DNA of 64,000 bases from assembly GCF_900636535.1 (NCBI RefSeq), contig NZ_LR134289.1:1054001-1118000 (forward strand). Direction: 5' to 3'. The DNA is from Chryseobacterium gleum. Lineage in GTDB: Bacteria > Bacteroidota > Bacteroidia > Flavobacteriales > Weeksellaceae. The notes under the pieces were generated by a model, which did not search any database, was not told the origin of the DNA, and saw only the letters and a program-made list of their open reading frames with translations. How positions within the stretch are numbered: position 1 is the first letter of the stretch; each line of letters starts with the position of its first letter. Positions 55,545 to 56,061 of the stretch are shown piece by piece. The position numbers and the translations under genes were made by a program.

Positions 55545-55617
55545 TAGCGGGAACCGGACTCGAACCGATGACCTTCGGGTTATGAGCCCGACGAGCTACC
55601 TACTGCTCCATCCCGCG
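55545..55617 (-). tRNA. Initiator tRNA-fMet (CAU), variant A, copy 1
   Basis: Minus strand, 73 nt without encoded CCA. The anticodon loop is CTCATAA (CAU). It has initiator marks: three consecutive G-C pairs at the base of the anticodon stem (TCGGG / CCCGA), mismatched first pair (C1 with U72), and an A11-U24 pair. T stem ATCGG / CCGGT; acceptor pair 7:66 is A-U. Confidence 0.93.
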
Positions 55618-55655
55618 GTATATTTTTAGAGTGCTAACCGAAAGCACTGACTTAG

Positions 55656-55728
55656 TAGCGGGGACACGACTCGAACGTGCGACCTTCGGGTTATGAGCCC
55701 GACGAGCTACCTACTGCTCCACCCCGCG
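55656..55728 (-). tRNA. Initiator tRNA-fMet (CAU), variant B, copy 2
   Basis: Same D and anticodon arms as copy 1 but T stem GCACG / CGTGT and acceptor pair 7:66 G-C. C1-U72 mismatch and three G-C pairs retained. 73 nt. Confidence 0.93.
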
Positions 55729-55766
55729 GTGTATTTTTAAAGTGTTTACCGAAAACACTGACTTAG

Positions 55767-55839
55767 TAGCGGGAACCGGACTCGAACCGATGACCTTCGG
55801 GTTATGAGCCCGACGAGCTACCTACTGCTCCATCCCGCG
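55767..55839 (-). tRNA. Initiator tRNA-fMet (CAU), variant A, copy 3
   Basis: Identical to copy 1 in the mature 73 nt. Starts exactly 111 bases from copy 2. Confidence 0.93.
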
Positions 55840-55877
55840 GTGTATTTTTAGAGTGCTTACCGAAAGCACTGGCTTAG

Positions 55878-55950
55878 TAGCGGGGACACGACTCGAACGT
55901 GCGACCTTCGGGTTATGAGCCCGACGAGCTACCTACTGCTCCACCCCGCG
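55878..55950 (-). tRNA. Initiator tRNA-fMet (CAU), variant B, copy 4
   Basis: Identical to copy 2 in the mature 73 nt (T stem GCACG / CGTGT). Starts exactly 111 bases from copy 3. Confidence 0.93.
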
Positions 55951-55988
55951 GTGTATTTTTAGAGTGTTTACCGTAAACACTGACTTAG

Positions 55989-56061
55989 TAGCGGGAACCG
56001 GACTCGAACCGATGACCTTCGGGTTATGAGCCCGACGAGCTACCTACTGCTCCATCCCGCG
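55989..56061 (-). tRNA. Initiator tRNA-fMet (CAU), variant A, copy 5 (promoter-proximal)
   Basis: Mature 73 nt as copy 1. It is first in transcription order: a -7 box lies 11 bases upstream. Confidence 0.93.

Follow-up and report, generated by a model that had tools for sequence, protein, structure and literature searches.

Two forms of initiator tRNA gene alternate in a tandem array of Chryseobacterium gleum and its relatives

The initiator tRNA genes of Chryseobacterium gleum lie in a single five-copy tandem array in which two forms, A and B, follow one another in the order A-B-A-B-A, and mixed arrays at the same locus of related genomes alternate beyond chance. We consider it likely that this is an initiator dosage array built from two gene lineages, in which the alternation is kept by dimer-wise recombination between like copies. 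The alternation itself looks for the most part like the trace of an old pair of genes that was copied together. We infer that A and B are close to interchangeable, with a difference that amounts to tuning at most, and we prefer this reading to a division of labour between the forms, which we rank second.

The array was analyzed within a window of 64,000 nucleotides, to whose numbering all positions refer unless stated otherwise. ARAGORN places five tRNA-Met(CAU) genes on the minus strand, spanning 55544-56061, and each start lies exactly 111 bases from the next. Read 5' to 3' on that strand, and thus in the order of the presumed transcript, these are gene 1 (form A, 55988..56061), gene 2 (form B, 55877..55950), gene 3 (form A, 55766..55839), gene 4 (form B, 55655..55728) and gene 5 (form A, 55544..55617). 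Rfam finds the same five genes at 73 nt each (e.g. 55545-55617), the ARAGORN calls being one base longer. Between them lie four spacers of 37 bases, each of which folds into a hairpin: spacers 1 and 3 lead from A to B (55951..55987 and 55729..55765), and spacers 2 and 4 lead from B to A (55840..55876 and 55618..55654). In Tandem Repeats Finder a period of 222 bp (97% matches, score 1008) outscores one of 111 bp (89%, 867), so that the better repeat unit is the dimer. The initial annotation had described five initiator genes with exact 111-bp spacing in the order A-B-A-B-A, and this is confirmed. It also asked for a genome-wide copy count; when form A was used as query against the genome, one contig of 5.6 Mb, only these five genes matched. 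CCA is encoded in none of the five genes; according to PMC5143459, most tRNA genes of the Bacteroidetes/Chlorobi group lack an encoded CCA.

The whole array is probably one transcript. A terminator follows gene 5, and none is listed between the genes on the minus strand; it is a strong intrinsic terminator of 17 pairs and then a T run (55502..55538), and the stretch 3' of gene 5 that contains it (55500-55543) folds at -19.1 kcal/mol with a z of -7.4. A possible promoter element read from the sequence, TACCTTTG, lies 11 bases before gene 1 (56073..56080, minus strand) and fits TANNTTTG, a Bacteroidota -7 motif. Similar elements were found 5' of the other arrays inspected. A sigma-70 consensus scan reported nothing at the TACCTTTG site on the minus strand, a scan not suited to TANNTTTG-type promoters. 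Upstream of the array, and divergent from it, is a gene of the Sua5/YciO/YrdC family (56163..56774, plus strand; PF01300, 161 bits), which synteny identifies as a conserved neighbour. Elsewhere in the window, two adjacent same-frame open reading frames on the plus strand (54700-55059 and 55066-55470), separated by a stop, resemble parts of one secreted protein; a Pfam search of the first gave no match.

Alignment of the two forms confines their differences to pair 7:66, which is A-U in A and G-C in B, and to T-stem pairs 49:65 to 52:62, which are A-U, U.G, C-G and G-C in A and G.U, C-G, A-U and C-G in B. Pairing is intact throughout, and positions 8 to 48 are identical, in agreement with what had first been claimed for the T stem and pair 7:66. 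The initiator marks claimed at the same time are present in all five genes, namely the CAU anticodon, the C1-U72 mismatch (the E. coli initiator has C1-A72), and the three G-C pairs of the anticodon stem, which are G29-C41, G30-C40 and G31-C39 in both forms. Features related to formylation can also be read from both sequences (G2-C71, C3-G70 and A11-U24); pairs 2:71 and 3:70 and the R11:Y24 pair are described as serving formylation in PMC11231383 and PMC9976931. The Rfam tRNA score is 62.1 bits for A and 60.5 bits for B, with a cut-off of 29, and on this score, together with the pairing of all stems of B in the predicted fold, the reading of B as a pseudogene or a degenerate gene is rejected.

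Relatives carry the array at the orthologous locus, divergent from the Sua5/YrdC gene. Arrays beside this gene were read from 133 distinct records, which include outgroup genera and at least one double-counted genome. In 121 of these the first tRNA lies 99-102 bp from the Sua5 match; 34 are mixed, 80 hold A only and 7 are of other make-up, with 1 to 7 genes per array and the A T arm present in at least 114 of the 121. Two of the 34 mixed arrays were read from named records and are not separable from the arrays of G281 and G288. Form B is matched in 35 of 173 genomes of the genus (35 of the 169 that are well assembled), taken as the 34 mixed arrays plus G061, where an A-B pair lies away from the Sua5 gene; the other 138 give no B match. 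Mean copy number is hardly different with B (3.65) and without it (3.46). Several genomes also have initiator copies away from the Sua5 gene, G012 and G058 carry a related form, D, alone, and a search for the initiator core at up to two mismatches gave no match in G001, G021, G039 and G057. A further form, which joins the anticodon stem TTGGG/CCCAA to the T arm of A, occurs in L039 and L274 (the array of G041), L120 (G075) and L307 (G317), and it alternates with B in G041 and G317. Chryseobacterium flavum (G036; L037/L167 and L112/L188) has 13 initiator genes spread over two contigs, and two of the genes are damaged; this may be a real amplification or assembly trouble. A phage origin of the array found no support: among the best 20 of 289 records, 18 matched over roughly the length of one tRNA and 2 over 170 bases, at 69-87% identity.

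Across the mixed arrays, 76 of 91 neighbouring pairs are unlike (genome G008 being counted twice), against 55.2 expected (sd 3.5; 0 of 20000 shuffles). Because relatives share arrays, the test was repeated with one array for each of 18 clades, delimited by eye on a single-gene Sua5 tree with several weak nodes; 84% of pairs were then unlike against 60% expected, with p <= 0.003 in each of 300 draws, and taking the least alternating array of every clade left 36 unlike pairs against 27.8 (p = 0.0007). Thirteen of the 15 three-gene mixed arrays alternate (one, L112, is cut by a contig end), and both phases are seen, ABA and BAB as well as ABABA and BABAB. Random order in relatives had been named at the outset as the observation that would count against an A-B unit; alternation recurs there instead, with exceptions. 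The mixed arrays that do not alternate throughout are AAB, AABA (three), ABAA, ABAAA, BAAA, BBA, ABBB, BABBB, ABABABB and the G036 contig.

The spacers, too, go by the A-B dimer. In the eight arrays with at least three alternating spacers, two spacers of the same class (A to B, or B to A) are on average 1.3 edits apart (15 comparisons), and two of different class 9.2 edits (28 comparisons); the contrast is smaller among the window's own spacers, at 2-3 versus 4-5 edits. Lag-2 periodicity of the spacers is found in mixed arrays (p = 0.004, 16 arrays) and is not significant in A-only arrays (p = 0.16, 38 arrays); dimer periodicity is not upheld as a general property of the locus. Its restriction to mixed arrays fits exchange mainly between like copies, and A/B heterology seems to set the recombination register, which an array of uniform copies would lack. 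The duplication of an A-B dimer, as initially proposed, is thus supported both by the dimer-wise spacers and by the periodicity of mixed arrays. On the mechanism that we favour, the array would grow, shrink and homogenise by recombination between like copies; since the two forms are unlike in the T arm and at pair 7:66, exchange would be favoured of A with A and of B with B, which would place it in a 222-bp register, and the A-B dimer would then act as the unit by which the alternation is maintained. Some genes look recombinant, among them A4, which has B1-type positions 9 and 43 with the T arm of A, as well as v14 and v24, the last of which lies near a contig end. The body of the B gene is that of A in 18 of the 34 mixed arrays (B2) and a different one in 16 (B1). 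As B2 also stands alone in Elizabethkingia, a body shared between A and B2 is by itself no proof of conversion.

Hairpins are general to these spacers, 166 of 167 distinct ones having at least four pairs when folded singly; the exception is a 1-base stub. In 42 distinct TCGGT-loop stems, drawn from the 166 spacers, pairs 2 to 6 counted from the loop beat 500 of 500 shuffles, and pairs 1 and 7 do not beat all 500, by a statistic that ignores relatedness. When the spacers were aligned with MAFFT and folded as a consensus, no structure emerged (0.0); the alignment fails to match up stems of unequal length. With their paired changes across arrays, the hairpins are a possible processing signal.

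The occurrence of the two forms outside the genus bears on which is older. A pattern combining the initiator core with the B T arm was run over GTDB genomes, and the matches listed include Pedobacter, Fluviicola, Elizabethkingia, Riemerella, Kaistella, Crocinitomicaceae, Prolixibacteraceae and others; as the pattern sought the B form alone, these matches speak for the breadth of B and say nothing of the frequency of other forms. In the Elizabethkingia records among them, the initiator has exactly the sequence of the window's B. In the other genera of the family, initiators were obtained from 79 of 80 genomes representing 30 genera. The B-type T arm is present in 18 of the 30, B-type initiators without A exist among them, and form A itself is present in four genomes of three genera (G172; G136; G148 and G166). 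With the B T arm so widespread and A predominant in Chryseobacterium, A is most simply the derived form and B a remnant. A is thus probably a derived form that took over in the genus, the polarity from B to A being drawn from occurrence counts. The initial annotation took B for the variant form, but of the two it is more likely to be the older, and its being a newcomer is unlikely, given the spread of its T arm over Bacteroidota and in those 18 genera.

How the window came by its own B copies is a separate matter; they may go back either to retention with repeated loss or to transfer by homologous recombination. Were A and B interchangeable, the survival of B in 35 genomes would need slow loss or repeated transfer. 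That the window's copies came by homologous transfer from another Chryseobacterium, and not from its own ancestor, is plausible if on balance somewhat doubtful, and would be compatible with the recombining dosage array. A tree built from four genes (41 taxa, 3033 positions) puts the window's ABABA among A-only genomes: it falls in a clade of support 1.00 with 16 of them, as sister to G279, which has one A gene. The three innermost nodes around it have support of 0.99-1.00, and one further out has 0.34. A spacer signature, TAAG[T/C]CAGTG, is shared, among the 133 array records, by the window and the B-bearing C. flavum (G036) only. On the other side, no donor tract could be delimited, the 100-bp leader is closest to that of A-only relatives (3 edits), and a single base separates the terminator from its counterpart in the A-only G030. 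Moreover, the tree genes adjoin the array, one of them was not found in four taxa, and some of the A-only relatives have a single copy and may be collapsed assemblies.

A and B were initially read as initiator isoforms that may differ in elongation-factor exclusion, turnover or modification; the dimer duplication in that reading stands, and the evidence for a functional difference is mixed and short of proof. We regard it as unlikely that the two are functional isoforms kept by selection, with alternation fixing their ratio through changes of copy number. In favour of such isoforms, the differing pairs include 49:65, 50:64 and 51:63, the three T-stem determinants of EF-Tu affinity as given in PMC11231383, together with 7:66, which by the same account contributes least. 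B shares G49.U65 and C50-G64 with the antideterminant of E. coli tRNA-Sec (C7-G66, G49.U65 and C50-G64, as described in PMC9976931 and PMC11231383), but its G7-C66 is unlike the C7-G66 of that tRNA. Moreover, the same two T-stem pairs occur in 4 of 50 distinct elongator species of the genome (84 of 86 tRNAs parsed), so they cannot count as an EF-Tu block here, and the idea of B as an EF-Tu-blocked form is not upheld.

Predicted folding sets the forms clearly apart. In a test that leaves out modifications as well as tertiary contacts and in which the D stem is not enforced, the predicted fraction of unmodified RNA in the cloverleaf is 0.0005 for A but 0.75 for B, as compared to 0.57 and 0.67 for the E. 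coli initiators, and the competing fold predicted for A is an 8-pair helix of positions 27-34, on the 5' side of the anticodon arm, with positions 57-64, on the 3' side of the T arm. By this prediction A is the less safe folder of the two, and it is the fourth lowest of 55 distinct tRNAs in cloverleaf share. However, values under 0.001 are also obtained for 5 of 53 distinct elongators, three of which lie lower than A, and the idea that the predicted misfolding would prove A to have a special function is not upheld. Other genera of the family do have mixed close pairs again: they are seen in 10 of the 11 g21 genomes given (three as X-Y-X-Y), in 3 of 3 for g28 and 1 of 1 for g3 (both of which differ at 7:66 alone), in 1 of 2 for g32 and in 1 of 7 for g26. 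The neighbours in g21 repeat the predicted folding contrast (X 0.58, Y 0.001), Y having the T stem of A in 8 of 10. Against selected isoforms stand the 138 of 173 genus genomes without a B match, the B-type initiators that do without A in other genera, and close pairs of identical copies (G128, G138, G141, G143 and G205). The g21 X and Y genes are about 80 bp apart in ten genomes, e.g. G137, G159 and G195. Outside the window, a dense run of 16 tRNA genes by Rfam (L356; G000:C1:4387737-4390214) resembles a tRNA array of the phage or mobile kind, many of its genes duplicating identities that the genome also encodes at other places; the tRNA-Trp in this run agrees with initiator A in pair 7:66 and in the T stem.

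Slightly less probable again is a two-part initiator system in the family, a model in which a direct folder (B, or X of g21) would be joined by a misfold-prone form with the ATCGG/CCGGT stem (A, or Y) that depends on tRNA chaperones or T-arm modification. Pairing of the two in one transcript would keep start tRNA available whenever folding or modification became limiting, and alternation would lock their ratio while the copy number changes. Improbable, too, is that unlike neighbours were favoured as stabilisers of the array, suffering fewer 111-bp deletions than A-A-A would; dimer periodicity only in mixed arrays does suggest that heterology limits exchange between neighbours, but A-only records outnumber mixed ones, 80 to 34, and reach similar sizes. 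Repeats collapse easily, as the 13 copies of G036 on two contigs with two damaged may illustrate, but an assembly artefact is very hard to credit for a one-contig genome with one-contig parallels (G087 ABABA, G013 BABA, G109 ABA and G042 ABAAA), and it would not yield dimer-specific spacers.

Initiator dosage and the features that exclude initiators from elongation have been worked out mostly in E. coli, and the closest likeness to the dosage array that we favour is metZWV of that species. Its tandem initiator genes have a period of 110 bp (2947387, 2947497 and 2947607), as compared to 111 bp here, and a terminator-like hairpin, judged by eye, follows the genes as in the window. The three metZWV genes are identical, and the second E. 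coli form, metY, which differs by one base, stands alone elsewhere. In contrast, the window's array alternates two forms that differ in five base pairs, does not encode CCA, and has hairpin-bearing spacers, those of metZWV being without a stable hairpin (0 and -0.7 kcal/mol). According to PMC11480407, growth suffers under certain conditions when metZWV is lost, which supports dosage as the function of the array.

Bacterial tRNA array units combine many tRNA identities. The array of C. gleum shares the dense run of tRNA genes with them, but where the mycobacterial units, as presented in PMC5966550, hold many tRNA genes, it has one identity in two forms. Homogenisation within a genome is common to this array and to concerted evolution by unequal exchange or gene conversion, as treated in PMC3595265 and PMC7804092; here it appears to be dimer-wise, with two T-arm classes left standing. 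What is new is the mixed, alternating make-up, its recurrence in the genus, and the mixed pairs in other genera of the family. Among top-ranked titles in the open-licence PMC literature, none dealt with alternating initiator arrays or with Chryseobacterium initiator genes, which is weak evidence of novelty.

Natural arrays of A-only, A-B-A, B-A-B and A-B-A-B-A make-up at one orthologous locus offer a ready set in which to study the role of the T arm in initiation, and the arrays of the genus are also suited to watching heterology set the recombination register of a short tandem array. Bacteroidota are described in PMC6847099 as lacking Shine-Dalgarno sequences, which makes the initiator side of start selection of special interest in this phylum. 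The 1:72 mismatch of initiators depends on lineage within the family and phylum, being C-U here, U-U in Pedobacter records and others, and C-A in genus g9. A Pedobacter-type initiator is also carried by a record titled Glaciecola amylolytica (L193, CP034120.1), possibly a mislabelled or mixed genome.
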